From Halostagnicola larsenii XH-48 (GTDB taxonomy: Archaea; Halobacteriota; Halobacteria; Halobacteriales; Natrialbaceae), in assembly GCF_000517625.1 (NCBI RefSeq), contig NZ_CP007056.1, positions 62,001-126,000 on the forward strand: a stretch of 64,000 nucleotides of DNA, given 5' to 3'. Of the stretch, positions 41,790 to 61,919 are shown piece after piece. Position numbers and translations under genes: made by a program. Position 1 is the stretch's first letter, and each line of letters opens with the position of its first letter. Below the pieces are notes generated by a model that saw nothing but the letters and a program-made list of their open reading frames with translations, searched no databases and was not told where the DNA came from.

Positions 41790-42548
41790 TCATTTGACCC
41801 CGAGATACGATTCCATTGCCTCGCGATCCGTGGCCAGCTCCGCGGCGGGCGATTCGTGGACGATTTCTCCGGTCTCGAGGACGTAGGCGTAATCGGCCAG
41901 CCCGAGCGCCATCTCCGCGTTCTGCTCGACGAGCAGGATCGTCACGCCGTCGTCGTTGAGTTCGCGAATAATCGCGGCCACGTCGTCGACGATCTGCGGT
42001 GCCAGTCCCTCGGAGGGCTCGTCGAGCAAGAGCAGGTCGGTGTCGGGTCCGAGCAGCGCTCGAGCGATGGCCAGCATCTGCTGTTCGCCGCCGCTCATGG
42101 TTCCGGCGTCCTGCTCTCTGCGTTCGTCGAGTCGCGGGAACCGGCGGTAGATCTCCTCGAACTGATCGGTCTGCTTCCCGTCGCCGCTGTGGGCTGCGAG
42201 TCGCAGGTTCTCCTCGACGCTTAGCCCGCTGAAGACGCGCCGTTCCTCGGGTACCCACGAGATTCCCTGTTTTCGGATTTCGTGGGGCTCCCGGCCCTGT
42301 ATCTGTTCGTCACCCTTGGTAATTTCTCCGTTCGTCACGGGTGTTAACCCCATGATACTGCGGAGTGTCGTCGTCTTGCCCGCACCGTTTCTGCCGACCA
42401 GCGCGACGATGTCGCCGCGGTCGATCGTCAGCGAGAGATCGAACAGGATGTGACTCTCCCCGTAGTGCGTATCGATCGAATCGACCGACAGCAGGGTGTC
42501 GTCGCTGTCGTCCGCTTGCAGCTTCGCTTCAGCGTTGGACTCACTCAT
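41790..42548 (-). CDS. livF: LivF-type branched-chain amino acid/amide ABC transporter ATPase
   Basis: A 252-residue ATPase with Walker A 'LVGRNGAGKTTTLRS', signature 'MSGGEQQMLAIARAL' and Walker B 'LLLLDEPSEGLAP'. The chosen ATG (42548) overlaps the end of livG by eight bases. With LivG, LivH, LivM and the binding lipoprotein it forms a complete HAAT-family importer. Family members also import aromatic acids such as benzoate derivatives, which fits the neighbouring CoA ligases and epoxidase. Confidence 0.95.
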   Translation of the reverse strand: MSESNAEAKLQADDSDDTLLSVDSIDTHYGESHILFDLSLTIDRGDIVALVGRNGAGKTTTLRSIMGLTPVTNGEITKGDEQIQGREPHEIRKQGISWVPEERRVFSGLSVEENLRLAAHSGDGKQTDQFEEIYRRFPRLDERREQDAGTMSGGEQQMLAIARALLGPDTDLLLLDEPSEGLAPQIVDDVAAIIRELNDDGVTILLVEQNAEMALGLADYAYVLETGEIVHESPAAELATDREAMESYLGVK

Positions 42549-43341
42549 CGCTACCACCTCCGAGGTACGCCTCCTGAACCCGGTCGTCGTCCTGGATCTC
42601 GGCCGGGGTTCCGCGAGCGAGCAGTGAACCCTTGTTCATCACGGCGATGCGGTCGGAGATATCCATGACGATGTTCATGTCGTGTTCGATGAGGACGAGG
42701 GTCACGTCCGCTGCGATTTCCGTGATCAACTCGACCGTCTCTCTGGTCTCCTCGGGACTCATCCCCGCCGTGGGTTCGTCCATCAACAACAGCTCCGGGT
42801 CGGCGGCCAGCGAGATGGCGATCTCGAGGTGTCGCCGCTGACCGTAGGAGAGGTTCGCCGCCTGACGGTCGGCGACGTCGGCTAGGTGGACCTGCTCCAA
42901 CACCCGTCTCGCCTCCTCGATCGGTCGTTCGATGCCGCCGTGGTGACGAACGAAATCGCCGGGACGGAAGCCGGTGGTACGCGCCTGCGTCGCGAGTCGG
43001 ACGTTCTCGAGGGCGGTCAACTCGTCGAAGAAGTTCGTGATCTGGAACGAGCGGACGATTCCGCTCGTGACGATATCGTGTGGCTCCTCGCCGCCGATTT
43101 CGTTACCGCGGAACCTGATGTTCCCGGTCGTCGGCGCGTGTTTTCCGGTAAAGAGGTTGAACAACGTCGTCTTCCCCGCTCCGTTCGGCCCGATGATCGA
43201 CGTGATCGACCCGGACTCGATCTGGAGCGACACGTCGTCGACCGCGGTCAACGCGCCGAATTTTTTCGTCAGACTCTCCGTCTCGAGAACGATTCCGTCT
43301 TCGACCTCGGCCGCTTTCGCGTCTGTCGTACTCGTAGTCAT
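42541..43341 (-). CDS. livG: LivG-type ABC transporter ATPase
   Basis: A 266-residue ATPase with Walker A 'IIGPNGAGKTTLFNLFTG', signature 'LSYGQRRHLEIAISLA', Walker B 'LLLMDEPTAGMSPEE' and the C-terminal 'RGTPAEIQDDDRVQEAYLG' extension characteristic of LivG. It follows livM by two bases and overlaps livF. Confidence 0.95.
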   Translation of the reverse strand: MTTSTTDAKAAEVEDGIVLETESLTKKFGALTAVDDVSLQIESGSITSIIGPNGAGKTTLFNLFTGKHAPTTGNIRFRGNEIGGEEPHDIVTSGIVRSFQITNFFDELTALENVRLATQARTTGFRPGDFVRHHGGIERPIEEARRVLEQVHLADVADRQAANLSYGQRRHLEIAISLAADPELLLMDEPTAGMSPEETRETVELITEIAADVTLVLIEHDMNIVMDISDRIAVMNKGSLLARGTPAEIQDDDRVQEAYLGGGSDE

Positions 43342-43343
43342 AG

Positions 43344-44423
43344 TTAGCCTCTCACCGCCTCGACGTAGTTTCGAACCGCTCCCCTGGCGTTTTCGATCGC
43401 ACCGCCGGGATCGTTTCGAAGCGAGATCAAGATCCCGGCGAGTCCCCGCGGCGCGAAGATGACGACGCCGACGAAGATCGAACCGAGGATAACCTCCCAG
43501 CTCGCGAAGCCGGCGAGTTGTTCCTCGAGCAAGACGACCAGCCCAGCGCCGAGCATCGGTCCCCAGAGCGTCCCCATGCCGCCAAGGAGCAACATGACGA
43601 TGAGTTCCCCGCTGATCATCCAGTGGAGGTTCCCGGGGTGGGCGACGCTCTGGAACGGGACGTACAGGCCGCCCGCGAGGCCGGCGAATCCGCCGCTTAT
43701 CGCGAACCCGACGACCTTGTAGCGGCGCACGTCGTAGCCGATGAACTCCACGCGCTCTTCGTTTTCGCGGATCCCCTGTAACACCCGTCCGAACTGCGAG
43801 TTCGCGAGCCGGACGAGTACCGCAAGCGAGAGCGCGACCAGCGCGAGCGTCAGGTAGAAGTACATGAGCGTCTCCGTGAAGTCGATTCCGAACAGCTCGT
43901 ACATGCCGATTCCGTAGAGACCGTTGTCCCCGCCGGTAACCGACTCCTGGCCGAGGACCGTGGCAGGGAGGTCAGTAAACGCGATCACGTAGAACATCTG
44001 TGCGAACGCGAGCGTCAACATCGCGAAGTAAATCCCGCGGGCCCGCACGCTCAACCAGCCGATGAGTGCAGCGACGACGACGCCGGCGATGACGGCCACC
44101 GGCAGGACGACGAAGGCATGGGACGTCCCGTCGGTGAGGAGTATCGCGGCCGCGTAGCCCCCTGCGCCGAACATCGCAGCGTGGCCGAACGAGAGCAAGC
44201 CCGCGTAGCCGAACACGAAGTCGAGACTCAGCGCGAACAGGGCGAAGATCATCATCCGAACCAGCAGGTTCAACCAGAACGGGTGGATCTGTTCGACGAT
44301 CGGTGCAGCGACTGCGAGCGCGGCAATCGCGATGACCAGTGCGAGTCGACCACGGCTCGAGAGGAGTTGATTCCCCGTTCCCGTGGGCGAACGACGCTCG
44401 AAGAATTCGGTGACTGCTTTCAT
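43344..44423 (-). CDS. livM: LivM-type ABC transporter permease
   Basis: A 359-residue permease with about nine to ten membrane segments. The family motif 'FGYAGLLSFGHAAMFGAGGY' is near residue 70, and the cytoplasmic EAA-like loop 'GIRENEERVEFIGYDVRRYK' is near residue 225. It is directly adjacent to livH (no gap) and followed by livG. Confidence 0.94.
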   Translation of the reverse strand: MKAVTEFFERRSPTGTGNQLLSSRGRLALVIAIAALAVAAPIVEQIHPFWLNLLVRMMIFALFALSLDFVFGYAGLLSFGHAAMFGAGGYAAAILLTDGTSHAFVVLPVAVIAGVVVAALIGWLSVRARGIYFAMLTLAFAQMFYVIAFTDLPATVLGQESVTGGDNGLYGIGMYELFGIDFTETLMYFYLTLALVALSLAVLVRLANSQFGRVLQGIRENEERVEFIGYDVRRYKVVGFAISGGFAGLAGGLYVPFQSVAHPGNLHWMISGELIVMLLLGGMGTLWGPMLGAGLVVLLEEQLAGFASWEVILGSIFVGVVIFAPRGLAGILISLRNDPGGAIENARGAVRNYVEAVRG

Positions 44424-45293
44424 TTATGCTGCCTCCGTGGTTCCGAAGAGTCCGCTCGGTTTCGCCATCAGTACAACTGCCATCAGTACGAACAGGAACA
44501 GTTCGGTCAGCGTCGGTGCGAGCAGGGCTCCGTACGCCGTTACCAGCCCGATCAGTAACGCGCTGTAGACCGCGCCGCGGAAACTGCCGAGTCCACCGAT
44601 GACGACGATGATGAACGCCTCGATGATGACGTTGAATCCCATACCGGGATGGACCGACTGCGTTCCGCTCAACAGGACGCCGGCAACGCCGGCGAGCACG
44701 GCGCCGAAGACGAACACGCCAGTGAACACCTTCGAGACGTCGACGCCGAGCGCGTTGACCATCTCCGTATCGTGGGCGCTCGCACGCATCAGAATTCCCA
44801 TGTTCGACCGTTCGATCGCGAGCCAGACCAGTCCGATCAACACCGAACTGAAGGCGAACACGAACAGCCAGTAGATCGGGTAGTTGATCGGTCCAACCGG
44901 AATCGATCCCGAGAGTATTTCGGGCGTCGGCATCTGTCGCGACTGCGCTCCCCAGATCTGGACGATCGCACCCTGTATCATGATCGCGATGCCGAACGTC
45001 AAGAGGATGTGATACAGCGGGTTTCGTCCGTAGAGCGGTCGAAGCGACAGGATTTCGATCGCCGCTCCGACGAGCCCGACCAGAAGTGGCGCGATGAGCA
45101 AGGCCAGCCAGAAGTTACCGAACTGGCCCGCGATAATCGTCCCGAAGTACGCGCCGAGCATGAACAGCGAGCCGTGTGCGAAATTGATCACGTCTAACAT
45201 GCCGAAGATCAGGGTCAACCCCGCGGCGATGAGCGCGAGGGTCATTCCGAGCTGGAGGCCAAGCAGCGTCGCCCGGATTATCGACTCAACCAT
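44424..45293 (-). CDS. livH: LivH-type ABC transporter permease
   Basis: A 289-residue permease with about eight membrane segments. The N-terminal 'GLTLIFGMLDVINFAHGSLF' is the LivH signature, and 'FIIVVIGGLGSFRGAVYSAL' lies near the end. It is the first permease of the operon, about 120 bases after the binding-protein gene. That gap could allow a higher level of binding protein than of permease. Confidence 0.94.
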   Translation of the reverse strand: MVESIIRATLLGLQLGMTLALIAAGLTLIFGMLDVINFAHGSLFMLGAYFGTIIAGQFGNFWLALLIAPLLVGLVGAAIEILSLRPLYGRNPLYHILLTFGIAIMIQGAIVQIWGAQSRQMPTPEILSGSIPVGPINYPIYWLFVFAFSSVLIGLVWLAIERSNMGILMRASAHDTEMVNALGVDVSKVFTGVFVFGAVLAGVAGVLLSGTQSVHPGMGFNVIIEAFIIVVIGGLGSFRGAVYSALLIGLVTAYGALLAPTLTELFLFVLMAVVLMAKPSGLFGTTEAA

Positions 45294-45413
45294 GCGTGAC
45301 TGGCCCCCAGACGGATTTGTCGTACTCGCGGCTCGACGCGACTCGAGCGATACGAGGCGTCCCTATTCGTCCGGCTGGACCGCCGTCGAGACAGTTCGTG
45401 TCGCTCATACGAG

Positions 45414-46679
45414 TCACAGGCTGCAACCCCAGTCCGGTCCTTCGACCATCTCGATTGTCTCGGTCACTTCGTTTTCGACGGCATCCTCGCCGTCGCTCTC
45501 GACGACCTCGAGGACGTGCATGTCCTGGATCGCTTCGTGGGTATCGGGATTAAATTGGAAGTTCCCGCGCGGACTGTCCAGTTCCATTCCCGAGAGGGCG
45601 TCGACGAGGTCGTCCGGGTCCGATCCGCCGGCGTCTTCGACGGCAGCGCCGAAGGCCTGCCCCGAGTCGTACCCCTGGCAGGCGTAGACGTTAGCCGACG
45701 CGTCGTACAGGTCGTTGTACTCGTCGACGAACGCCTGATTTCGGTCGCTCTCGATCGTCGACGTGTAGTGCAGCAGCGAGTACATGCCCGCCGCCTCGCT
45801 TCCTTGCGAAGGGAGCGTGTCCTCCGAGAACATGAACCCGCTCGCGGTCTGAGTCATCTCCTCGTGGATGCCGAGACTGGTGAGATCGTTGACGTAGTTG
45901 ACGGCGTCGGAACCCGCGAAGAACGAGTAAATCGCGTCCGCGCCCGAGTTTTCGACGTCGCCGAGGTACGGCGCGTAGTCGCTGGTGCCGAGCGGGATAC
46001 CGACTTCCTCGACGATTTCTCCGCCGGCCTCTTCGAAGGCTTCGCTGAAGAAATTCTTCGAGTTCTGTCCGAACGCGTAATCCGCGTAGGTCAGACAGAC
46101 GTTGTCGGCGACGTTGTCGTACACCCACTCGGCGAGCGGGGCACTCGTCTGCCAGTCGTTGAACGACGTCCGGAAGTGATAGTCCAGACATCCTTCCTCG
46201 GTCACGCGGTAGTCGCCCGCGTTCGCGTTGAGCCAGACCGCGCTCGACTCGGCTTCAACGATTCCCATCATCGCGATCGCCACGGCGCTCGAGACCGGGC
46301 CGACGATCGCATCGACGCCCTCTTCGACCAAGAGCTCTCGCGTGACGTCTACGCCCCGGTCGGTGTCCGCCTCCGTATCGAGTTGGACGGTTTCGACTTC
46401 CTCGCCGTTTACCTCGCCGTCCTGTTGCTCGAGATACATATCGAATCCGTTGACGATACTTTCCCCGAGATAGGCGTACGTCCCGGTAAACGGGAGCGCG
46501 TAGCCGACGGTGAGCCCGGAAGAACCACCGGTACATCCCGCAAGCGTTGCGGCGACGCCAGTTGCCGCCGTTCCCGCTAGATACTGTCGACGAGAGAGCG
46601 TCGGCGTGGTTGCCCGCTTGCGCTGGCGGCTCGTACTGTCCCCCTGATTGCTAGTTGCATCCGTGCCTCTACGAGACAT
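45414..46679 (-). CDS. Liv-type substrate-binding lipoprotein (LivK-like)
   Basis: A 421-residue periplasmic-binding-fold protein (type 1, Leu/Ile/Val-binding). A Tat motif (SRRQYLAGT) is followed by a lipobox ending in Cys ('AATLAGCTGG'). Mature family features include 'VGYALPFTGTYAYLGESIVN', 'GVDAIVGPVSSAVAIAMMG' and 'LTYADYAFGQNSKNFFSEA'. The ligand is unknown; homologues bind amino acids, amides or aromatic acids. The ATG at 46679 is chosen because the Tat signal follows and a TATA box lies about 28 bases upstream. Confidence 0.92.
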   Translation of the reverse strand: MSRRGTDATSNQGDSTSRQRKRATTPTLSRRQYLAGTAATGVAATLAGCTGGSSGLTVGYALPFTGTYAYLGESIVNGFDMYLEQQDGEVNGEEVETVQLDTEADTDRGVDVTRELLVEEGVDAIVGPVSSAVAIAMMGIVEAESSAVWLNANAGDYRVTEEGCLDYHFRTSFNDWQTSAPLAEWVYDNVADNVCLTYADYAFGQNSKNFFSEAFEEAGGEIVEEVGIPLGTSDYAPYLGDVENSGADAIYSFFAGSDAVNYVNDLTSLGIHEEMTQTASGFMFSEDTLPSQGSEAAGMYSLLHYTSTIESDRNQAFVDEYNDLYDASANVYACQGYDSGQAFGAAVEDAGGSDPDDLVDALSGMELDSPRGNFQFNPDTHEAIQDMHVLEVVESDGEDAVENEVTETIEMVEGPDWGCSL

Positions 46680-46686
46680 ATGGCTT

Positions 46687-46696
46687 GTGTGCACAC
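46687..46696. promoter_or_regulatory. Perfect palindrome GTGTGCACAC at the livK transcription start
   Basis: The ten-base palindrome lies between the livK TATA box (46701-46712) and its ATG (46679), over the predicted transcription start, which is a classic repressor position. A related GGTGTGCCC occurs near 46737, upstream of the divergent CoA-transferase gene. Confidence 0.5.
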
Positions 46697-46700
46697 CACA

Positions 46701-46712
46701 TGTATATATAAC
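46701..46712 (-). promoter_or_regulatory. Probable TATA box of the liv operon
   Basis: A TTATATATACA sequence on the minus strand is centred about 28 bases before the livK ATG, which fits a leaderless transcript. Confidence 0.6.
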
Positions 46713-46753
46713 TTTTGTTAATGTCGGTTTCGGCACGGTGTGCCCGCGACAAT

Positions 46754-51120: not shown

Positions 51121-51405
51121 TCAGGGGCTCTCGTCGGTTCGAATGCGGAGGTCGGATCGGGGCTTCGCGATGCAGGTCAGCGCGTATCCTTCCTCTTTCT
51201 CGCTCTCGGAGAGGAACATTCCCTCGGTCTGGTCGACTTCGCCGTCCTCGACGACCATCCCGCAGCAGACGCCACAGACACCCATCCGACACTGATACGG
51301 GGGTGTGAGACCGGCTTCTTCGGCCGCCTCGAGCACCGGCTTGTTCGCCGGCACTTCGATCGTCCGACCCTCGTCGATAAACTCGACGGTGTAAGTCTCG
51401 ACCAT
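51121..51405 (-). CDS. Plant-type 2Fe-2S ferredoxin
   Basis: A 94-residue ferredoxin with the cluster motif 'CRMGVCGVC' (Cys-x4-Cys-x2-Cys) and the fourth Cys in 'YALTCIAKP'. The sequence around the cluster resembles the C-terminal ferredoxin domain of PaaE, the reductase of phenylacetyl-CoA epoxidase. No PaaE flavin/NADPH-binding domain is encoded in the window, so this small protein is the natural candidate to deliver electrons to the divergent PaaABC-like oxygenase. It follows the GNAT gene by three bases. Confidence 0.9.
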   Translation of the reverse strand: MVETYTVEFIDEGRTIEVPANKPVLEAAEEAGLTPPYQCRMGVCGVCCGMVVEDGEVDQTEGMFLSESEKEEGYALTCIAKPRSDLRIRTDESP

Positions 51406-51408
51406 GGT

Positions 51409-51906
51409 TCAGTGGTCCTGGTCGATCGGTTTTTCGTAGACGTGCTCGACGGGTTCGAACGCCTCTCCCTCGTAGAACTCCTGTGAGTACGAGTCGCCGT
51501 CGATGGTGTCGACGCGGTAGAAGTCGACGTCCTTTGAGGAGTCGCTGAACCACTCGTGGACTTCCTCCAGCAGGGCGCTGCCGACGCCGTTGCCTCGGTG
51601 GCCTTCGGAGACGAAGTGTCCGTTTATGTAGCCGTGATTCTGGAGCCGGAAGATCGGATGATTCCCCATGATGCGGGCCTCGAGGACGCCGACGAGCTCG
51701 CCCGTCTCCTCGTGTTCTGCCACGATCACCGTTCCGTACTTCGACTCGAGCAGTTGGCTTTCGAAGTACTGGAGCCACCGATCGTTGGCGCTTTCTTTGT
51801 GGTGGTATCGCTCGTCGTATTCAGAGAGGTGTTCGGTGAACCCGTGCCAGAGTTCCAGCAGTTCCTCGCCGTCATCGACGCTCGCGTGGCGTATCTCGTA
51901 CGACAT
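51409..51906 (-). CDS. GNAT-family N-acetyltransferase
   Basis: A 165-residue GNAT protein. The acetyl-CoA-binding motif A is 'FVSEGHRGNGVGSALLEEV', preceded by 'VGVLEARIMGNHPIF'. The substrate is unknown. It is divergent from the epoxidase cluster and co-oriented with the ferredoxin gene three bases away, which suggests that both are expressed together. An A/T-rich CTTTTTTGG lies about 25 bases upstream of the ATG. Confidence 0.9.
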   Translation of the reverse strand: MSYEIRHASVDDGEELLELWHGFTEHLSEYDERYHHKESANDRWLQYFESQLLESKYGTVIVAEHEETGELVGVLEARIMGNHPIFRLQNHGYINGHFVSEGHRGNGVGSALLEEVHEWFSDSSKDVDFYRVDTIDGDSYSQEFYEGEAFEPVEHVYEKPIDQDH

Positions 51907-52100: not shown

Positions 52101-52135
52101 CTGGGGTGACAACTGCTATTCGGACGAAACGAGCT

Positions 52136-53056
52136 ATGCCCACGGAAAAACAATTCAAGAACGAACTACAGAACGGGAAGATGATCGAATCGACCGACGA
52201 GATGACCGACGGCTACGAGAAGGCCCTCAAACAGATCCTGCTCGTGTCGGGCGATACCGAGCTTATGAGCGCGCCCGCGTACTACGAACAGTCGCTCAAC
52301 GCGCCGTCGCTCGACGCGCGGGCTTCGTGTATCAGCGTCATCCAGGACGAACTCGGCCACGGTCACATCGCCTACCGGCTGCTCGAGGACCTCGGCGAGG
52401 ATCGGCAGGAACTCATCTACGAGCGAGAGCCCCACGAGTTCCGTAACACGTACGGGTTCGACCAGCACATCGACAACTTCGCCGAACTCGTGACGGCCCA
52501 CGGCATCTTCGACCGCGCCGGGATCGTGCTCCTCAGCGACATTCACGAGAACACCTCCTACGCGCCGTGGAAGCGCGCGCTCACGAAGGTGAGCAAGGAA
52601 GAGCAGTTCCACCTCCGACACGGCGAAACCTGGATGCGCCGGCTCGCGAACAACAGCGAGAAGACGAAACGCCACCTTCAGGACGCGATCGACTGGATGT
52701 TCCCGATGGGCGTCGAGTGGTTCGGCATGCCCGACGACAAGAAAAAACACGACGACCAGCTCGAGTATCGTATCAAGGGCAAGTCCAACGACGAGCTCCG
52801 ACAGGACTGGCTCTCGCGGACGCTCCCGCTGATGAACGAACTGGACCTCGACGTTCCGGCCCACTACAGCGACGAACGCGACGAGTACGTTCTCGAGTAC
52901 GACCTCCCGGTGGCGTTCGACGCCGAGAACAAGGAGTGGCGCTTCGACGAACCCATTTCGTGGTCCGATGTCATGGATCGGTGGCGCTCGCGCGGTCCCG
53001 CCAACGACAGGTACGTGAACATGGTCCAGTCCGGAACCGTGGAACTCGAGGTGTAA
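52136..53056 (+). CDS. paaA: PaaA-like catalytic subunit of an aryl-CoA (phenylacetyl-CoA) epoxidase
   Basis: A 306-residue ferritin-like di-iron protein. Iron-ligand motifs are present in the helical bundle: Glu-x2-His in 'VIQDELGHGHIAYRLLEDLG' and in 'KVSKEEQFHLRHGETWM', and an earlier Glu in the first helix. 'LQDAIDWMFPMGVEWFG' is typical of PaaA. The enzyme inserts one oxygen atom into the aromatic ring of a CoA thioester to give an epoxide. The ATG at 52136 is chosen over an upstream frame because the family starts there. It leads the operon paaA-paaD(N)-paaB-paaC-paaD(C). Confidence 0.93.
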   Translation: MPTEKQFKNELQNGKMIESTDEMTDGYEKALKQILLVSGDTELMSAPAYYEQSLNAPSLDARASCISVIQDELGHGHIAYRLLEDLGEDRQELIYEREPHEFRNTYGFDQHIDNFAELVTAHGIFDRAGIVLLSDIHENTSYAPWKRALTKVSKEEQFHLRHGETWMRRLANNSEKTKRHLQDAIDWMFPMGVEWFGMPDDKKKHDDQLEYRIKGKSNDELRQDWLSRTLPLMNELDLDVPAHYSDERDEYVLEYDLPVAFDAENKEWRFDEPISWSDVMDRWRSRGPANDRYVNMVQSGTVELEV

Positions 53057-53058
53057 CG

Positions 53059-53463
53059 ATGTCGAGTGCACGCACAAACCCAACGGAATCCGTGGAATCC
53101 GTAGAACCCGATCTGGCCGGGGAGTTCGTCGAGGGGCGTCGCGCCGATGCGACGCCGTTCGAGCGCGAACTCTGGGACATGATCGACGAGATTCCGGATC
53201 CGCACATTCCCGTCAGCCTCGTGGAGATGGGAATGATCTACGACGTCGAAGTAACGAACGGTCACGTCGCCGTCGAGATGACCTACCCGTGTATGGGCTG
53301 TCCGGCCTACGACATGATACAAAACGATATCAGGAGCTGTCTGTCCCTGACCGACGGCGTCGACGAGGTCGACGTCGAGGTCGTCTGGGACCCGGTCTGG
53401 TCGAAGGACATGCTCACCGAACCGGTCCGCGAAAAGATGCGCGAGTCCGGAATCAGCCTCTAA
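53059..53463 (+). CDS. paaD: PaaD N-terminal half: MIP18-type (DUF59) protein
   Basis: A 134-residue protein with the MIP18/PaaD fold ('EIPDPHIPVSLVEMGMIYDV', 'TYPCMGCPAYDMI', 'DPVWSKDMLTEPVREKMRE'). Bacterial PaaD continues after this with a zinc-ribbon tail; here the protein ends at 'ESGISL'. The missing ribbon is encoded as a separate gene at the end of the same operon (54442-54618). MIP18 proteins assist iron-sulfur or metal assembly and PaaD is needed for epoxidase activity in bacteria. The ATG follows the paaA stop by two bases. Confidence 0.92.
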   Translation: MSSARTNPTESVESVEPDLAGEFVEGRRADATPFERELWDMIDEIPDPHIPVSLVEMGMIYDVEVTNGHVAVEMTYPCMGCPAYDMIQNDIRSCLSLTDGVDEVDVEVVWDPVWSKDMLTEPVREKMRESGISL

Positions 53464-53471
53464 CCCGATCT

Positions 53472-53681
53472 ATGAAGTACGAAGTATTCGCACGAATAAA
53501 CCAGGGTGACGATACCATCCACGTCGGTACCGTCACCGCACAGAGCGACAGACTAGCGCGGATGTACGCCTACAACACCTTCGACGAGGAAGACTGGAAC
53601 TACCTGGCCGTCGTCCGGGAAGAAAACCTGCTCGAGGTCAGCGGCGACCAGCCCAAACGCGAGGTGGCGGCCGGTGAGTGA
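53472..53681 (+). CDS. paaB: PaaB-like small subunit of the epoxidase
   Basis: A 69-residue protein matching PaaB ('YEVFARINQGDDTIHVGTV', then 'AYNTFDEEDWNYLAVVREEN'). PaaB bridges PaaA-PaaC units in the bacterial complex. It is shorter than the usual ~95 residues, lacking part of the C-terminal tail. It starts eight bases after the paaD(N) stop, and its end overlaps the GTG start of paaC. Confidence 0.88.
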   Translation: MKYEVFARINQGDDTIHVGTVTAQSDRLARMYAYNTFDEEDWNYLAVVREENLLEVSGDQPKREVAAGE

Positions 53682-54438
53682 GTGGCCCGACCCGGCGGTC
53701 GACTACGTGCAGGCGATTTCCGATACGAAACTCGTCCTCGGACAACGGTACGCGGAGTGGAGCCTCTCCGGCCCCTCGCTCGAGGACGATATCGGGGGTG
53801 CGAGCGCGGCCCAGGAGGAGATCGGCCACGTTCGCCAACTCGCGCGCGAACTCGAGGGTCAGGGACGCGACCTCGAATGGATAAACGGCCAGCGGGACCC
53901 GGACGAGTTCGCGAACGCCGCCTGTCTCGACCGCCTCGAGGGAAGTTGGACGGAGTACGTCGCGTCGGTCGCGCCGGCAGACCGCGCCGCGTGGTATCTG
54001 CTCGACGCGATCGATCGAGACGATCTAGACGGCCTGATCACCAAGATGGGCGAAGACGAGTACTTCCACCTCGAGTACCACGACGCTCGCCTCGAGACGC
54101 TCGCCGAGGAAGATCCGGAAACGGTCCAGAACACGCTCGAGACGACGTTACCGCAGGCGCTCGCGCTCATCGGCCCGGCCGCCTACGACGAGGATGAGGA
54201 CCCGGTCTACACCACCGGGTTCACGGACCGATCGGTCGCCGAGATTCGCGAATCCTACATCGACCACTACCGACGGCTCTTCGAGGGAACCGACGTCTCG
54301 CTCGAGGCCGTCGAGTGGGACGAACCCGCGCTCGACGACTGGGACGAAAAGCGGCGGCGGTCGGGCTCCGGCGCGATCAGCCAAACGGACGTCGAGCAGC
54401 TCCGAGGCGAGAAAAACCAGCTGTTTACGATGAACTAA
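53674..54438 (+). CDS. paaC: PaaC-like subunit of the epoxidase, retaining metal-ligand motifs
   Basis: A 254-residue ferritin-like protein. In bacterial PaaC the second di-iron site is largely lost and the subunit is structural. Here two Glu-x2-His motifs remain, 'SAAQEEIGHVRQLARELEG' and 'KMGEDEYFHLEYHDARLE', along with a Glu in the first helix ('RYAEWSLSG'), so it may still bind iron. The start is GTG 53674, overlapping the end of paaB by eight bases. It forms the PaaA-PaaC heterodimer core. Confidence 0.9.
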   Translation: MSEWPDPAVDYVQAISDTKLVLGQRYAEWSLSGPSLEDDIGGASAAQEEIGHVRQLARELEGQGRDLEWINGQRDPDEFANAACLDRLEGSWTEYVASVAPADRAAWYLLDAIDRDDLDGLITKMGEDEYFHLEYHDARLETLAEEDPETVQNTLETTLPQALALIGPAAYDEDEDPVYTTGFTDRSVAEIRESYIDHYRRLFEGTDVSLEAVEWDEPALDDWDEKRRRSGSGAISQTDVEQLRGEKNQLFTMN

Positions 54439-54441
54439 CCA

Positions 54442-54618
54442 ATGACCGACGACCGCTCCGAATCGACCGTGTTATGCCCGTTCTGTGGCGCTGCGGACAC
54501 GGAACAGGAGTCCGCGTTCGGGAGTGAAATCTCGAAGACGCAGTACTACTGCAACGGCTGTAACACGATGTTCGAACGGATCAAATACGACGGCGCGAAC
54601 CCGGAAACGGGCCGGTAA
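54442..54618 (+). CDS. PaaD C-terminal zinc ribbon encoded as a separate small gene
   Basis: A 58-residue protein starting three bases after paaC. 'LCPFCGAADTEQESAFGSEI' then 'TQYYCNGCNTMFERIKY' gives two CxxC pairs in the same order and spacing as the C-terminal zinc ribbon of bacterial PaaD (CPRC...SEFGST...YRCxxC...FDYFK). Together with the gene at 53059-53463 it would reconstitute a complete PaaD. It is a real gene that is easily missed because of its length. Confidence 0.87.
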   Translation: MTDDRSESTVLCPFCGAADTEQESAFGSEISKTQYYCNGCNTMFERIKYDGANPETGR

Positions 54619-54710
54619 CCGCCGCGACGGGGGCACGCTGGTTGCCCGCACCCATAGCATCAGCTATCTTGTTATTTCAATTCTACCCAATTTCTCGCTA
54701 GAAAGAAAGG

Positions 54711-54718
54711 TACTTATA
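54711..54718 (+). promoter_or_regulatory. Probable TATA box of the PaaF-like hydratase gene
   Basis: TACTTATA lies about 27 bases upstream of the ATG at 54743, consistent with a leaderless transcript separate from the epoxidase operon. Confidence 0.55.
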
Positions 54719-54742
54719 GGTGGGCCTCAATGAGTGTCTTGT

Positions 54743-55585
54743 ATGCAACTCCGACCGTTCAGTGAGCTGGATCTGGAGTATTTCACCACAGAGGTAACCG
54801 ACCACGTGGGCACCCTTCGACTGGACCGTCCGCCGGCGAACGCACACGACATCAACGTGCTGTTGGAGCTCCAACGCGCAGTCGAGGCGGTTCGGTTCGA
54901 CGAGAGCGTGCGCGCGGTCCTCTTCGGGAGTTCGAACGACAAGTTCTTCTCGACCGGATTCGACATCAAGGTCTTACAGGAGAAATCGGGTCGACAGGTC
55001 GGCTACGCGAGCCAGACGAGCAAAGAGATCATCATGAAGATGCGGACGACCGACACCATCTTCATCGCGATGGTTAACGGCCACTGCATGGGCGGCGGCC
55101 TCGAGCTCGCGCTGGCCTGTGACTTCCGCTACGTCGGCAACGACGAGAGCTACAACATCGGCATGCCCGAGATCCACCTCGGTCTCATCGCGGGTGAGGC
55201 GGGCACCCAGTTGCTCCCGCGGTACATCGACCGCTCGGAAGCGCTCGAGATGATGCTTACCGGCGAGACCCTCACTCCGGAAGAAGCGACGGAGAAGGGC
55301 ATCTTCGACGAGATCCACCCCCCGGACGAGATCGAAGACGCCGCCTTCGAGTTCGCCGAACTGATCGCCTCGAAAGCGAGCGTCGCCGTCGGCAACAACA
55401 AGCTGGCGGTCAACGAGGGCCTCGAGATGCCGCTCTCTGACGCGCTGGCACACGAACGCGAACTGCAGAACCGCTTGCTCGGCTCCGACGTCGCCAAAGA
55501 GGGCGTCGACGCCTTCCTCGACGACCGCGAGCCGGACTTCCTCGGCGTCGAACTCGGCGACGAAGAGCCCGGTTCCGACGAGTAA
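54743..55585 (+). CDS. Enoyl-CoA hydratase (PaaF-like candidate)
   Basis: A 280-residue crotonase with both hydratase glutamates: 'NGHCMGGGLELALACDFRYV' and 'NIGMPEIHLGLIAGEAGTQ'. 'DKFFSTGFDIKVLQE' is the oxyanion-hole region. The ATG at 54743 is preferred to a GTG at 54734 from the position of the TATA box. Its place directly after the epoxidase operon suggests that it hydrates the 2,3-dehydroadipyl-CoA-like product, as PaaF does. The C-terminus is acidic and slightly longer than usual. Confidence 0.9.
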   Translation: MQLRPFSELDLEYFTTEVTDHVGTLRLDRPPANAHDINVLLELQRAVEAVRFDESVRAVLFGSSNDKFFSTGFDIKVLQEKSGRQVGYASQTSKEIIMKMRTTDTIFIAMVNGHCMGGGLELALACDFRYVGNDESYNIGMPEIHLGLIAGEAGTQLLPRYIDRSEALEMMLTGETLTPEEATEKGIFDEIHPPDEIEDAAFEFAELIASKASVAVGNNKLAVNEGLEMPLSDALAHERELQNRLLGSDVAKEGVDAFLDDREPDFLGVELGDEEPGSDE

Positions 55586-56601: not shown

Positions 56602-57564
56602 TCACGCCGTCAGATCGATCTCGCCGGGGTACGATTCGACGGCGGGCGCGTATTCGACGGGCGTCCCCGCCCCCTCGAGCGGTCGAACGAGGTTGAGTGC
56701 AGCCAACCGCTCGAGGTGGGCGGCCGCTTCGCCCGCGCCGAACTTCGCGTGCACGCCGGACATTTCGCCGAATAGTTCCCGCGCGACGGCCCATGGCGTG
56801 CTCGCGGTCGACTGTGCCGTCTCGAGCGCCCGAAAGCAGGCTTGAGCCCGCTCGCGGTGGTGGTCGCGTACCTCCTCGCAGGCCGCCGGAACATCGATCG
56901 TCGTTCCGTGGCCCGGATACCCGCGTTCGGCCGCGTTCTCGACCCGATCCAGTGACGAAAGATATTTTGCGAGCGGATCGGACAGCCGCGTGTCGCTCCC
57001 GCCCACGTTCGGCGTGTACGTCGGCAACAACAGGTCGCCCAGATAGACTATCCCGTCTGCCCGCAGTGACGCGTGCCCCGCCGTGTGCCCCGGCGTGTGG
57101 ACGAACTCGACGCCGGCGACCACGTCGCCGTCGACGTGTGGTTCCGCCGGGAACGAATCCGGAAGCGGCGAGGGACTGTCGCCGTCTCTCACCTGCGTTC
57201 GCCTCGCCTCGGGGACGCCCCAGCGTTCGAGCGTCCGCTCATCGCGTTCGAGGCGGCGCTCTCGAGCGTTCGCGTAGTCGCCGACCAGCGGGCAGTCCGC
57301 ACGGTGGACGTGTAACGCGGCGCTCGCTCGCTCGGCGACCCGACAGGAGAGTCCCGCGTGGTCGATGTGCCAGTGGGTGACCAGGACGTGTTCGATATCG
57401 GTGACCGACAGACCTGCCCTGGTAATTCCGGCCTGGAGGCTCGACCACGCCCGTTCGGTCGGTGGTCCCGGGTCGATGAGGACGCCGCGATCGGGCAGGA
57501 CGTACGCGCTGTTTGCCCCTTCCGGCGAGCCGTCGCCGACGTCGATTCGAATAGTGTCACTCAT
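56602..57564 (-). CDS. Metallo-beta-lactamase-fold hydrolase
   Basis: A 320-residue protein with the metal-binding 'VTHWHIDHAGLSCRV' (HxHxDH), the His in 'VHTPGHTAGHAS', and 'GYPGHGTTID' with the later His. A C-terminal ~90-residue helical extension resembles the LACTB2/RNA-hydrolase-type winged helix ('EAAAHLERLAALNLVRPLEG'). The substrate is unknown. It follows the UbiD-like gene by four bases and is the last gene of that operon, so it may hydrolyse a product such as a thioester or lactone. Confidence 0.9.
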   Translation of the reverse strand: MSDTIRIDVGDGSPEGANSAYVLPDRGVLIDPGPPTERAWSSLQAGITRAGLSVTDIEHVLVTHWHIDHAGLSCRVAERASAALHVHRADCPLVGDYANARERRLERDERTLERWGVPEARRTQVRDGDSPSPLPDSFPAEPHVDGDVVAGVEFVHTPGHTAGHASLRADGIVYLGDLLLPTYTPNVGGSDTRLSDPLAKYLSSLDRVENAAERGYPGHGTTIDVPAACEEVRDHHRERAQACFRALETAQSTASTPWAVARELFGEMSGVHAKFGAGEAAAHLERLAALNLVRPLEGAGTPVEYAPAVESYPGEIDLTA

Positions 57565-57568
57565 AGCC

Positions 57569-58984
57569 TTACTTCGGAACCGTCGTCTCGTCCTGGTCGC
57601 CGAGCAGTTCGTCCAGCCCGAACTCCGCCCAGCGCTCGCTCAGCGCCTCGAGGATGTTCTCCGAGAACGCCGTCTCGAAGGTCACCCGCGGTGCGATGTA
57701 CTCTTCGTCCCATCGCGGGTCCCAGGTCGCGTTGACGTAGAGCCGGGAGCCGGTCTCGCCGTCGCGTCGATACCCGGTCGCCGTCGCGGCGGGCGCGTTC
57801 GGTTCGCTGAAGGTCCAGTCGTTCGCCGGATGGGCTTTCACCCACATGTCGTTGACCGCTCGAGCGAGGTTCGTCGGATCCGCCTGCTCGTCCAGTACGA
57901 CGACTTTGTCGAACAGATTCGAGAAGGAAAACAGCGTGTTCGCGAGTTGCCACTCGAAGCCGGCGTAGAGGATTTCGCTCGAGACGATACAGAGCCCGAG
58001 GCGGCCCTCGACGGGGAGCTGGATCCACTCGACCGGCGAGACGCCCCAGTAGTTGTTGACCCGCCTGAACAGCTGTGCGGCTTCGACGAGACTCGTGAGG
58101 TGCACGTCGTCGGTCATCGGACCGTTCGGCGGTGTAAACGAAACGATCGGCGACTCTCGCGTGGCGATCCGGTCGGCAGAAACTTCGATGGTCGCCGTGT
58201 CACCCGTCAGCTCCCAGGCGGCGTTCGGTCCGCGCGGTTCGGCCTCGACGACGCGTAGCGTGCCGTCGATCCGGACTTCCGCGTCGGCCGGTACGACCCG
58301 CGAATCGACGGTCGCCATCGGAATATCGGCCAATCCCGCGGCGAGTTCGGGAACCGCGGGCGTGGTCCGGTCCTGCGTCCACCCCTGCAGTGCAGCGAGC
58401 AGCGAACACGCCGACGCGCCGAGAACGACGCTCGCGGTCGCCGCCGGCTCACACCACTCCGCGAACGCCTCGGGAACCGAGAGACGGAGCGTTGTGCTGT
58501 GGAGGGCCTGTCCGCGAATCGGCACCCAGGTCGTCGTTCCCCGCTTCTCGGCGACGAGCACTCCGAGCGAGACGAGCGGATACCGGTCGGTCCCGACCGT
58601 TGGCAGGCCGAGGGTGTGTAGGTCTCCAGCCTCGTCGATGTCGGTCGCCGCCGGCTCGGTTTGCCGGTCCTCGACAGAGGCTGTTTCCCGTCCGGCCAGT
58701 CGCTCGAGCAGTTCGACGTACGAACAGTCGGGGCCGAGCCCGAGCGCCTGTGCGATCCGCTGGCCGGACTGGTGTGATCGGCTCGAGAACTGGCTGGGCC
58801 CGCCGTAGACGCCGCTCGCGAACCGCACCCGGCCGGGCGTAGTTTCGAACAGCGCTGCGGGAGCGCCGCCTCGGATCGCTTCCCGCGCGACGGTCGCGGC
58901 GGTTTCGTCCCAGTGAACCCCTTCGGTGATCGTCACCAGATCGTTCGTTTGCTCGAGGCGGTCGAGCTGCGTTCGAAGCGTCAT
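57569..58984 (-). CDS. UbiD-family protein lacking the catalytic motif
   Basis: A 471-residue UbiD-fold protein. Where active UbiD enzymes have the Glu-rich motif ending EGPFG-E/D, this one reads 'EVRIDGTLRVVEAEPRGPNA' and lacks the acid-glycine-proline-phenylalanine pattern. The fold is recognisable from 'VNNYWGVSPVEWIQLPVEG' and 'VNDMWVKAHPANDWTF'. It is therefore probably a non-decarboxylating partner. It overlaps the catalytic UbiD gene by four bases, and unequal UbiD pairs are known in phenylphosphate carboxylase. Confidence 0.82.
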   Translation of the reverse strand: MTLRTQLDRLEQTNDLVTITEGVHWDETAATVAREAIRGGAPAALFETTPGRVRFASGVYGGPSQFSSRSHQSGQRIAQALGLGPDCSYVELLERLAGRETASVEDRQTEPAATDIDEAGDLHTLGLPTVGTDRYPLVSLGVLVAEKRGTTTWVPIRGQALHSTTLRLSVPEAFAEWCEPAATASVVLGASACSLLAALQGWTQDRTTPAVPELAAGLADIPMATVDSRVVPADAEVRIDGTLRVVEAEPRGPNAAWELTGDTATIEVSADRIATRESPIVSFTPPNGPMTDDVHLTSLVEAAQLFRRVNNYWGVSPVEWIQLPVEGRLGLCIVSSEILYAGFEWQLANTLFSFSNLFDKVVVLDEQADPTNLARAVNDMWVKAHPANDWTFSEPNAPAATATGYRRDGETGSRLYVNATWDPRWDEEYIAPRVTFETAFSENILEALSERWAEFGLDELLGDQDETTVPK

Positions 58985-60519
58985 CGGTCAGGGCCCTCCA
59001 TCTCGATGAACGGGTCGGTTTCCGATTCGACTCCCGCCCGCTCGAATTCGAGTCCGGCCCGCTCGAGTATCTTCCGCGCTCGGTACGCCGCTTCGATATC
59101 GTCTTCTCGGGAGAAGTCGTCCGCGGCCGTCGCCGATCGATCGTCGGGCGCAGAACGCGTCGCGTCGATATATGCCTTCGCCGATTTCGCCTTCGACGTG
59201 CCGGTCTGCACGTCGCCCTTCTCGGTCGGCGTCTGGTAAATGTTCAGCGGAACCTTCGGCATCGTTTCGACGCCGAACTGGTGGAAGTCGGTGTCCGGGT
59301 CGGCGTGGAGCGCGAGTGCCTCGAGGACCGCCCGCTGATCGAGCGGGTCCACGTCGCCGTCGACGAAGACGAAGAAATCCACGTGGAGCATTCCCCAGGT
59401 GGTGAAGATGAAGTTCGCGAGTTCGTGGAGGTAGCCGGCATCCGTTGTCTCCGTCGAGATAACGTAGACTGTTCTGGGCGTCGATTTCCAGGGGACGCAA
59501 CTTTCGACGTCGAAGCCGGCAGCCCGGAGGCCGAGCGTCGCGTCGGGCCCGACGCAGCCGACTTCCATCGAACTCGTGGAGTTTTCGGAATAGCCGACGC
59601 CCGTCCCTTCGACGCAGAAGGGAATAATCGGGTCCTCTCGGTGGGTTATCGCCGAGACTCGCAGGAGGGGCATCGATCGCCGGGGACCGTGCATGTAGCC
59701 GAAGTAGTCGCCGAACGGTCCCTCGTCTCGGCGTTCGTTTGGGACGATTTCCCCCTCGATGACCAGTTCGGCCGACGCGGGCACCATGAGATCGTTCGTC
59801 TCGGCGGGGACGAGTTCGATGGGTGCCTGTTTCAATCCCCCCGCGAACTCGGCTTCGCTCCTGCCCGTCGGGATCCACATGACGGAGGTGTACTGCACGG
59901 CGGGTTCGACGCCGACCGCGATGGCGACCGGCATCGGCTCGTCGCGTCGCTCGTACTTGTAGTAGTAGAGGTTCGGCGTCTGTTCGCCAGCCAGCAGTAA
60001 TACGCTCGCGTTCTCGCCGTCGTGGATCATCGACCGGTGGTTCGACCAGTCGACCCACGACGAGTCGGGATCGGGCGCGATGAGCGTGTGGACGTTCGAG
60101 TATCGCCCGCCGTCGCCGCCGTGGATGTACGGCCAGGGAAACTCGAGCATGTCCACGTCGTCGCCGCTGACGACGAACTCCTTGCACGGCGCGTCGTCGG
60201 CCGAGACGGTCACCGGGTCCCGCGGATCTTTCAACCGATCGATGACGATTTCGTAGTACTCGCGCGCCGAGAGGTCCGGCGGGAGCCCCAGTCCGAGTGC
60301 GATCCGATCCCAGGGTCTATTCTGGGTTCCTCTGTACGGATCGCCAACGAGCCGAGCCGACTCGACGTCGTCGAAGACGGGGATCTTGCTGTCTTCTTTG
60401 TTCAACAGCATCGTGACGGCGCTGGCCTCGAGATTCCAGGACGTCGGCTCGGCGATTCGGTGGAGGTCACCTCTCGCTTCGAGTGTCTGTAGATACGCTC
60501 TGAGACTAGCGACCGTCAT
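58981..60519 (-). CDS. UbiD-family (de)carboxylase, prenylated-FMN dependent
   Basis: A 512-residue UbiD enzyme with the conserved 'ELVIEGEIVPNERRDEGPFG' continuing 'DYFGYMHG', containing the catalytic acid, and 'DWSNHRSMIHDGENASVLLL' in the prFMN-binding region. It (de)carboxylates an aromatic or unsaturated acid. The prenyltransferase UbiX is not in the window. It overlaps the small acidic gene upstream and the degenerate UbiD gene downstream by four bases each, so the three proteins are likely made in equal amounts and may form one enzyme. Confidence 0.9.
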   Translation of the reverse strand: MTVASLRAYLQTLEARGDLHRIAEPTSWNLEASAVTMLLNKEDSKIPVFDDVESARLVGDPYRGTQNRPWDRIALGLGLPPDLSAREYYEIVIDRLKDPRDPVTVSADDAPCKEFVVSGDDVDMLEFPWPYIHGGDGGRYSNVHTLIAPDPDSSWVDWSNHRSMIHDGENASVLLLAGEQTPNLYYYKYERRDEPMPVAIAVGVEPAVQYTSVMWIPTGRSEAEFAGGLKQAPIELVPAETNDLMVPASAELVIEGEIVPNERRDEGPFGDYFGYMHGPRRSMPLLRVSAITHREDPIIPFCVEGTGVGYSENSTSSMEVGCVGPDATLGLRAAGFDVESCVPWKSTPRTVYVISTETTDAGYLHELANFIFTTWGMLHVDFFVFVDGDVDPLDQRAVLEALALHADPDTDFHQFGVETMPKVPLNIYQTPTEKGDVQTGTSKAKSAKAYIDATRSAPDDRSATAADDFSREDDIEAAYRARKILERAGLEFERAGVESETDPFIEMEGPDR

Positions 60520-61013
60520 TCGTGTTCGTATAACTCCTCGGCGAGATCCGTGCGCTCAGATTGCACCTTGAGGTCGATGTACTCGCGGACGAGATTCGGA
60601 TAGTTCTCCGAGAGGTGCTGTAACATAATCGTTCGACTCGCTTCGGAGACGGACTGAAACTCCCCCTTCTCTGTGAGATACTGTAACAATGCTTTCACCT
60701 CTTTGGATCGCGTGTTGATGACGGTCGACTGCTCTTCGATTTCTGCCGTCGTCGACTCGAGGAGTTCGAGGTCGATGTCCTCACCTTCGTCCGTTTCGAT
60801 GATGTCGATGTACCACTCCTCTTCGGTATTCTCGTGTGGACCCTTGACGACGGTCAACGTCTCCGGATCCGTGAGGTTATCAGGGATTTTATCTATTCTG
60901 GCCCGGACGCTCGAGATCTCCTTCGTCCGTTCATCACTTATCTGTAATGTGGTCTCCTGCCCCGCTGGATCCTCGGGTAAGTTGTTTTCCGATGTGATGT
61001 AATTCCCTGTCAT
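60516..61013 (-). CDS. Small acidic protein of unknown function, first gene of the UbiD operon
   Basis: A 165-residue protein not recognised as a known family. It is very acidic. The C-terminal third, 'YLTEKGEFQSVSEASRTIML' and 'QHLSENYPNLVREYIDLKVQ', has the turn-helix pattern of ribbon-helix-helix proteins (GEFxSxSEAxR), so it may be a DNA-binding regulator or a third enzyme subunit. The ATG at 61013 is preceded by two TATA-like sequences (61041-61050 and 61055-61066). Its stop overlaps the UbiD start (ATGA). Confidence 0.75.
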   Translation of the reverse strand: MTGNYITSENNLPEDPAGQETTLQISDERTKEISSVRARIDKIPDNLTDPETLTVVKGPHENTEEEWYIDIIETDEGEDIDLELLESTTAEIEEQSTVINTRSKEVKALLQYLTEKGEFQSVSEASRTIMLQHLSENYPNLVREYIDLKVQSERTDLAEELYEHE

Positions 61014-61040
61014 GCGCTCTACCAGATGTTGGTAAGTCAG

Positions 61041-61157: not shown

Positions 61158-61919
61158 TCAATAATCTGGCTCTTCGTTCGCCAGAAACGCTCGTACGCCC
61201 TCTTCGTGCTCCGGCGAGCCGTAGGCGAGCGACTGCGTATGTATCTCGTGGGTGAGCGCGTCTCGCCAGCCTCGATTCATGTTCTCGTGGATCGCTCGCT
61301 TCGTGAGCCCGATCGTTTTCGAGGGCCGCTTTCGAAGCGTCTCGAGGAGTTCCTCGACCGTCTCGTCTAACTCCTGTGCGGGAACGGTCTCGTTTACGAG
61401 TCCGAGCCGTTGGGCCTCGCTCGCGGAGATGAACTCGCCCGTCATCGCCAGTCGTTTCGCCGCTCGAAGCCCGACGAGTTGCGGGAGGAGGAAGGTTCCG
61501 CCCGTATCGGGAACGAGTCCGACGCGCACGAACGCGCAACTGAAAGACGCGGATTCGACGGCGTAAGCGAAGTCACTGATAGCGGTTATCGCCAATCCGG
61601 CCCCTACGGCGTCGCCGTTGACTTTCGCGATGATCGGGAGCTCGGAGGAAAGGGCCGTTTCGACCACTCGTCCGAGGGTTTCGGTGACGCGGTCGACGGA
61701 TTCCTTCGGTGTTTCGTCGCGGTCGGCCATCGCCTCGAGGTCGCCACCGGCGCTGAATGCGTCTCCCTCACCGGTGAGTACGATCGCGTCGAACTGCGTA
61801 GCGTCGACGGCTTCGATGGCATCCGCAAGTTCCGTCGCAGCGCTTGCAGTGAATGCGTTGAGCGACTCGGGACGGTCGAAGGTTATCGTCCGAACCCCCG
61901 CGCTGTCTTCGACGTTCAT
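61158..61919 (-). CDS. PaaG-like enoyl-CoA isomerase (crotonase fold)
   Basis: A 253-residue crotonase. The oxyanion motif is 'DAFSAGGDLEAMAD'. Instead of the two hydratase glutamates it has 'GAGLAITAISDFAYA' and 'AFVRVGLVPDTGGTFLLPQL'. The latter closely matches the PaaG segment FSKLGLIPDCGGTWLLPR, with its catalytic Asp. It is the best candidate in the window for the isomerase that turns a ring-epoxide-CoA into the seven-membered oxepin-CoA. An AAATTTAACAG about 27 bases upstream is a good TATA box. Confidence 0.87.
   Translation of the reverse strand: MNVEDSAGVRTITFDRPESLNAFTASAATELADAIEAVDATQFDAIVLTGEGDAFSAGGDLEAMADRDETPKESVDRVTETLGRVVETALSSELPIIAKVNGDAVGAGLAITAISDFAYAVESASFSCAFVRVGLVPDTGGTFLLPQLVGLRAAKRLAMTGEFISASEAQRLGLVNETVPAQELDETVEELLETLRKRPSKTIGLTKRAIHENMNRGWRDALTHEIHTQSLAYGSPEHEEGVRAFLANEEPDY

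Follow-up and report, generated by a model that had tools for sequence, protein, structure and literature searches.

How does a pair of UbiD-fold proteins, one of them without a catalytic site, work in hosts that have no UbiX? The question is raised by a four-gene block of Halostagnicola larsenii XH-48, lying in a stretch of 64,000 nucleotides of contig NZ_CP007056.1 (assembly GCF_000517625.1, positions 62,001 to 126,000 of the forward strand), which we analysed as a whole and call the window. In order of transcription, the genes encode a small acidic protein, a UbiD-family protein with the full Arg-Glu-Asp triad (UbiDc), a degenerate UbiD-fold protein (UbiDd), and a metallo-beta-lactamase (MBL) fold hydrolase. 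The best reading of our results is a heteromeric UbiD-fold acid (de)carboxylase that would not use UbiX-made prenylated flavin mononucleotide (prFMN), with a probability of about 0.45. The features of the block are as follows, in window coordinates:

60516-61013, minus strand: small acidic protein, first gene of the cassette (165 aa, isoelectric point 4.2)
60516-60519: ATGA overlap of the small gene and UbiDc, read directly
58981-60519, minus strand: UbiDc, UbiD-family protein with the full triad (512 aa)
59980-59985, minus strand: E179-Q180 of UbiDc, replacing the canonical K/R190-H191 (by alignment)
59707-59724, minus strand: EGPFGD acid motif of UbiDc, read directly (E266 is Fdc1 E277, and D271 is Fdc1 E282)
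58981-58984: ATGA overlap of UbiDc and UbiDd, read directly
57569-58984, minus strand: UbiDd, UbiD-fold protein without N168, H191, E233, E277, and E282 (471 aa)
56602-57564, minus strand: MBL-fold hydrolase with the metal motif THWHIDH (320 aa), mainly an accessory of clade A (see below)

An earlier reading of the letters alone (the sequence-only reading) had placed these four genes on the minus strand and found an acid motif ending EGPFGDY in one UbiD, and we found both as described. It had also counted three ATGA-type overlaps or near-contacts. Two of them are exact four-base ATGA overlaps; the third junction, between UbiDd and the MBL gene, is a 4-base gap with no overlap.

Among 292 haloarchaeal genomes, the small protein, UbiDc, and UbiDd were all present in 66, in the same order, and partial sets were found in none. 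The small protein and UbiDd occurred in the identical 66 genomes, a co-occurrence far beyond chance, and close UbiDc relatives were confined to the same set. Three more genomes were matched by the UbiDd query at E about 1e-8, and these hold ordinary UbiD. No UbiDd was found outside Halobacteria in a scan of 84,980 species, with one genome per species. At the gene junctions, the UbiDc stop codon lies within [AG]TGA in 47/49 loci, and the extrapolated UbiDd start lies no more than 11 bases from it in 48/49. The inter-locus distances of the three proteins correlate (Spearman 0.80-0.88), which is the pattern expected from co-inheritance. The cassette often sits on megaplasmids; it spans five families (f1, f3, f4, f7, and f9), and each copy has retained UbiDd. 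The single loose end concerns G212: this genome has two UbiDc-UbiDd pairs, and a copy of the small gene stands alone elsewhere (L111:9675-10172), with no UbiD nearby and next to a threonine-synthase-like gene. The first three genes are a fixed cassette, and the MBL gene is not part of its core. The catalytic and the degenerate UbiD had been proposed as a coupled unit; their synteny is strictly conserved, and the degenerate gene does not occur mostly apart from its partner.

The main new result is the absence of UbiX, which the sequence-only reading had missed. Matches to the UbiX model TIGR00421 above its cut-off came from 23 of the 292 genomes; this set coincides with the 23 genomes that carry ordinary UbiD and includes none of the 66 cassette genomes (Fisher p 9e-22, a value that ignores kinship and is descriptive only). 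With PF02441, each cassette genome showed one gene, CoaBC by its length, whereas all 23 controls had both UbiX and CoaBC. A haloarchaeal UbiX query against 17 cassette genomes returned nothing better than E 0.03 and found UbiX in three positive controls. The same picture emerged from 148 genomes of the phylum: ordinary UbiD was present in 121, with UbiX over cut-off in 120 of them and fragments in the last, and the six cassette genomes in this sample had no UbiX. Two genera (g27 and g40) each hold both states, cassette without UbiX and ordinary UbiD with UbiX, so the split is not just descent; the search with the haloarchaeal UbiX query came out negative for cassette members of such mixed genera as well. 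To our knowledge, the UbiD enzymes characterised to date have been described as dependent on UbiX-made prFMN. Since the cassette hosts lack UbiX and the shell that would bind phosphate and metal is replaced, it is highly likely that this enzyme does not use prFMN made by UbiX. The UbiX pattern is the stronger of these two arguments.

UbiDc matches the UbiD family over three domains, all above cut-off (PF01977 221.9 bits, UbiD_N 48.4, UbiD_C 48.3). It keeps the triad (R162, E266, and D271) together with E222, and its cofactor shell is altered (D157, E179, Q180, and H405). In Fdc1 numbering, R173, E277, and D282 are invariant in 72/72 UbiDc relatives. We compared 37 canonical archaeal UbiDs with 36 cassette UbiDc sequences. 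The canonical proteins have N168 in 37/37, K/R190 in 36/37, and H191 in 31/37, with E233 and R421 invariant. The cassette proteins all keep R173, E233, E277, and D282, but they have N168 in 3/36 and R421 in 0/36, with E at position 190 and Q at position 191 in all. N168, H191, and E233 are what we take to be the Mn ligands of Fdc1, and E233 alone of this prFMN-phosphate metal set remains in UbiDc; position 168 is D throughout clade A and R, S, T, H, or N in clade B. Mn2+ is required for prFMN binding in UbiD (PMC10865409). The Asp at 282 is common in canonical archaeal UbiD (30/37) and is compatible with activity, since E282D Fdc1 is still active (PMC5818171). W215, H161, E179, and Q180 are conserved residues specific to the cassette, and the S223 and M225 positions are mostly kept. 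A loss of Fdc1 L439 was suggested by two alignments; a third places L425 there, invariant in 46/46, and we do not claim it. As a separate observation, the third UbiD of the ppc cluster on Azoarcus sp. KH32C pAZKH (L238:6723-8069) keeps R173, E277, E282, and R421. Read from the alignments, the changes in UbiDc support, short of proving, a loss of prFMN.

For UbiDd, the UbiD_N and UbiD_C domains score over their Pfam cut-offs, and the central rift domain falls below. Its AlphaFold model matches HudA (7abo; Foldseek E 1.4e-24), and a profile-profile alignment gave a probability of 99.9 and E 5e-35. At the Fdc1 positions, E277 is deleted, E282 is P, E233 and N168 are T, and the H191 loop is deleted; the R173 position is partly kept (R in 27/46 and H in 15/46 sequences). 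The alignment also ruled out a catalytic motif that is shifted but intact: the site is gone, not moved. Thus, the earlier statement that this protein has lost the acid motif and retains the fold was confirmed. In an alignment of 46 sequences, some 50 positions never vary, and most of them fall in the C-terminal half. Residues 384-440 contain many of these, yet the monomer model places them at a predicted local distance difference test (pLDDT) score below 50. A segment that is invariant but unplaced in the monomer suggests packing on another chain, and in the model this part is a candidate interface.

A tree of 46 UbiDc sequences separates clade A (27 loci, support 100/98) from clade B (18 loci, 96/89); the one remaining sequence belongs to neither. 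Clade A, to which the window belongs, is found in two settings. One contains paaABCD-like genes, enoyl-CoA (coenzyme A) hydratases, a 2Fe-2S protein, and a benzoate-CoA-ligase-family gene, and the other a thiolase, an acyl-CoA dehydrogenase, and paa genes. The proposed link to a neighbouring aryl-CoA pathway was upheld for this lineage, where the cassette adjoins a paaABCD-like cluster; Haloterrigena turkmenica pHTUR01 has the same gene content as the paa neighbourhood of the window. Clade B continues into an AMP ligase, acyl-CoA dehydrogenase, biotin carboxylase, carboxyltransferase, and MaoC hydratase, and the closest solved structures of its carboxyltransferase and dehydrogenase are generic acyl-CoA/propionyl-CoA carboxylase and acyl-CoA dehydrogenase only. 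The natural reading is one enzyme type acting on aromatic acids in clade A and on aliphatic or branched acids in clade B. Both settings would suit a substrate of the malonate type, with arylmalonate converted to arylacetate or methylmalonate to propionate, although this is a guess. Known malonate decarboxylases of that kind need no flavin. In a 2026 survey of phenylacetate pathways, incomplete ones are noted for Halobacteria, and UbiD goes unmentioned (PMC13186573).

The MBL gene directly follows UbiDd in 23/27 clade A loci, whereas a CoA ligase or an acyl-CoA dehydrogenase takes its place in clade B. A general link between MBL and cassette was therefore rejected, and the MBL enzyme is not a core partner. 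MBL genes recur near both clades: at one clade B locus (L105:11261-12220), a different MBL-fold hydrolase is encoded directly upstream of the small gene. Several clade A loci have, opposite the MBL gene, an HMG-CoA-synthase-like gene and a thiolase-domain gene, the latter related to BbsB (as at L088:13044-15619).

The small protein has a beta-rich N-terminal domain with an invariant GPHE and ends in a helix pair that resembles a ribbon-helix-helix (RHH). Its alignment has 17 invariant columns, and its model a pLDDT of 83. The best sensible structural match, SegB (7dv2), is weak (probability 0.90, template modelling score 0.62 on the target, E 0.56), and so is the sequence match to ParD (E 1.6). 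An RHH-like end had been noted earlier; as to the role of the protein, we modestly favour an RHH DNA-binding regulator of the operon over an enzyme subunit. A perfect inverted repeat, TACCA-ACATC-TGGTA, lies at window positions 61020-61034, just ahead of the start codon of the small gene. As a conserved operator it was rejected: TACCA-N5-TGGTA occurs in only 2/45 upstream regions, those of the window and one close relative.

Sequence, genomic context, and distribution together suggest how the cassette could work. UbiDc and UbiDd would very probably form a heteromeric enzyme, made in matched amounts through translational coupling. Through its Arg-Glu-Asp network, UbiDc would provide the acid-base step in a non-oxidative (de)carboxylation, and UbiDd would be a non-catalytic partner that packs on UbiDc with its conserved C-terminal part, shaping or closing the active site. 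The enzyme may work flavin-free or with another ligand in the prFMN pocket; that prFMN is not used at all is close to an even call, leaning slightly against. It would prepare a carboxylic acid, aromatic in clade A (and thus in the window) and aliphatic or branched in clade B, for the adjoining CoA-dependent pathway, and a role in acid catabolism is probable. The small RHH-like protein would most likely control the operon, and the MBL protein may be an accessory hydrolase of clade A.

Several points weigh against this reading. The complex is deduced and (de)carboxylation is assumed from the triad, and the absence of a UbiX homolog leaves room for an unrelated prFMN synthase. Position 191 is not strict in the family (D in PpcA, R in PpcB), and the same third Azoarcus UbiD (L238:6723-8069) has G168, P191, and K233, that is, all three metal ligands lost, with UbiX adjoining. 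Thus, ligand changes alone are no proof of prFMN loss. Metal binding could also persist in clade A, through D157, Q180, and E222.

These points lead to the first alternative, a prFMN-dependent pair that obtains its cofactor from a prenyltransferase unrelated to UbiX and binds it at a rearranged phosphate and metal site (D157, Q180, and E222 in clade A). The kept triad and E233, the mostly kept S223 and M225 positions, and the Azoarcus protein would all fit, as would the fact that the closest relatives with a solved structure (TtnD, Fdc1, and HudA) are prFMN enzymes. Nevertheless, we hold it to be unlikely, because no cassette genome has a UbiX-like gene where the ordinary-UbiD genomes keep one, and because the varied residues at position 168 in clade B leave no conserved metal site.

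A second possibility is that the UbiD fold was reused for another reaction, such as hydration, isomerisation, or CoA thioester binding, with the triad as a general acid-base. The loss of the cofactor shell around an intact triad, the four cassette-specific residues, and the CoA-pathway enzymes that adjoin both clades would agree with it. However, an acid triad combined with Arg is what marks the carboxylate site, and we know of no UbiD homolog with a function other than (de)carboxylation; we regard this reuse as rather improbable.

The sequence-only reading had compared the two proteins with the unequal UbiD subunits of phenylphosphate carboxylase (PpcABCD), which would imply fixation of CO2 onto an activated aromatic. 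The likeness is that two UbiD-fold subunits and a small protein are encoded in one cluster with a CoA ligase nearby, and Azoarcus PpcA (22.5% identity, E 5e-7) is the only non-haloarchaeal protein among the plasmid matches of UbiDd. With the UbiDd profile, however, the score of PpcA does not exceed those of UbiDc and a Streptomyces UbiD. Azoarcus PpcA and PpcB both keep R173, E277, E282, and N168, so neither subunit is degenerate, and the comparison fails on the point that had suggested it. PpcABCD also has gamma and haloacid dehalogenase (HAD) delta subunits, and ppc adjoins UbiX; no HAD delta or gamma gene was found in the operon, and the small protein matches neither subunit (best E against PpcD/PpcG 0.08). 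The Ppc alpha/beta equivalog profiles gave 160.7/113.4 bits for UbiDc and 36.0/25.4 for UbiDd, below the cut-offs of 564.6/468.95. Membership was rejected, and Ppc-like chemistry is very improbable. Finally, that UbiDd is a decaying duplicate without a role would explain its lost catalytic residues, but its presence in every cassette and its invariant columns contradict this, and it is hardly credible.

The heteromeric acid (de)carboxylase that we prefer can be set beside other known systems. It resembles the prFMN (de)carboxylases Fdc1, HudA (PA0254), and TtnD in the whole-length match of UbiDc, the Arg-Glu-Asp network, and E233, and UbiDd shares their fold; it differs in its UbiX-less host, in the replacement of N168, K/R190, H191, and R421 in UbiDc, and in its obligate degenerate partner. 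The vanillate/hydroxyarylate decarboxylase VdcCD, of the BsdBCD type, likewise joins a UbiD-fold enzyme to a small partner protein. VdcD, however, is a zinc CXXC protein situated close to the triad (PMC8379154), whereas the small protein of the cassette lacks cysteine and has an RHH-like end. Several UbiD-like subunits are encoded together for the naphthalene carboxylase of culture N47 and the anaerobic benzene carboxylase, but these are anaerobic bacterial hydrocarbon carboxylases with proposed prFMN. The N47 enzyme is a complex of about 750 kDa, and with UbiD complexes of several subunits already known, heteromer formation would not in itself be a novelty (PMC12016498). No papers on this cassette were found in the open-access literature, and neither was a description of a triad-less obligate partner combined with the absence of UbiX.

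The surroundings of the block in the window include the following neighbouring genes:

61158-61919, minus strand: enoyl-CoA hydratase/isomerase family gene upstream of the cassette (best NCBIfam match PaaG, below cut-off)
52106-55585, plus strand: paaA, paaD-like, paaB, paaC, and enoyl-CoA hydratase genes, neighbours on the opposite strand

Further away, a transporter gene set of the branched-chain amino acid/urea ABC type (41790-46736) adjoins the aromatic cluster and is a possible aromatic acid importer. Upstream of the benzoate-CoA-ligase-family gene lie two tandem CoA-transferase family genes (PF01144; 46790-48446), for which no NCBIfam model matched at E 1e-20. A recurrent gene pair beside the paa genes (51121-51906) encodes a 94-aa 2Fe-2S protein and a GNAT acetyltransferase; PaaE reductase is missing, and the 2Fe-2S protein may replace part of it. 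At other loci, a gene for a coiled-coil SMC-like ATPase of about 593 aa lies directly upstream of the cassette (L081:11295-13076, and in the same place in L082, L083, L091, and L115).

We tentatively propose, at somewhat less than even odds, a prFMN-free UbiD lineage: a UbiX-independent heteromeric (de)carboxylase of a triad subunit and an obligate triad-less partner, divided into one branch for aromatic acids and one for aliphatic acids. The presence of a conserved UbiD in 66 UbiX-less haloarchaeal species implies either a second route of prFMN synthesis or prFMN-free UbiD chemistry, and either would be new. Genomes that have ordinary UbiD and UbiX are sharply separated from those that have the cassette and no UbiX, even inside single genera, which makes the question a clean one. 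Besides, the cassette offers a UbiD pair in which one subunit has lost catalysis, and it points to unrecognised steps in the breakdown of aromatic and branched acids by haloarchaea.

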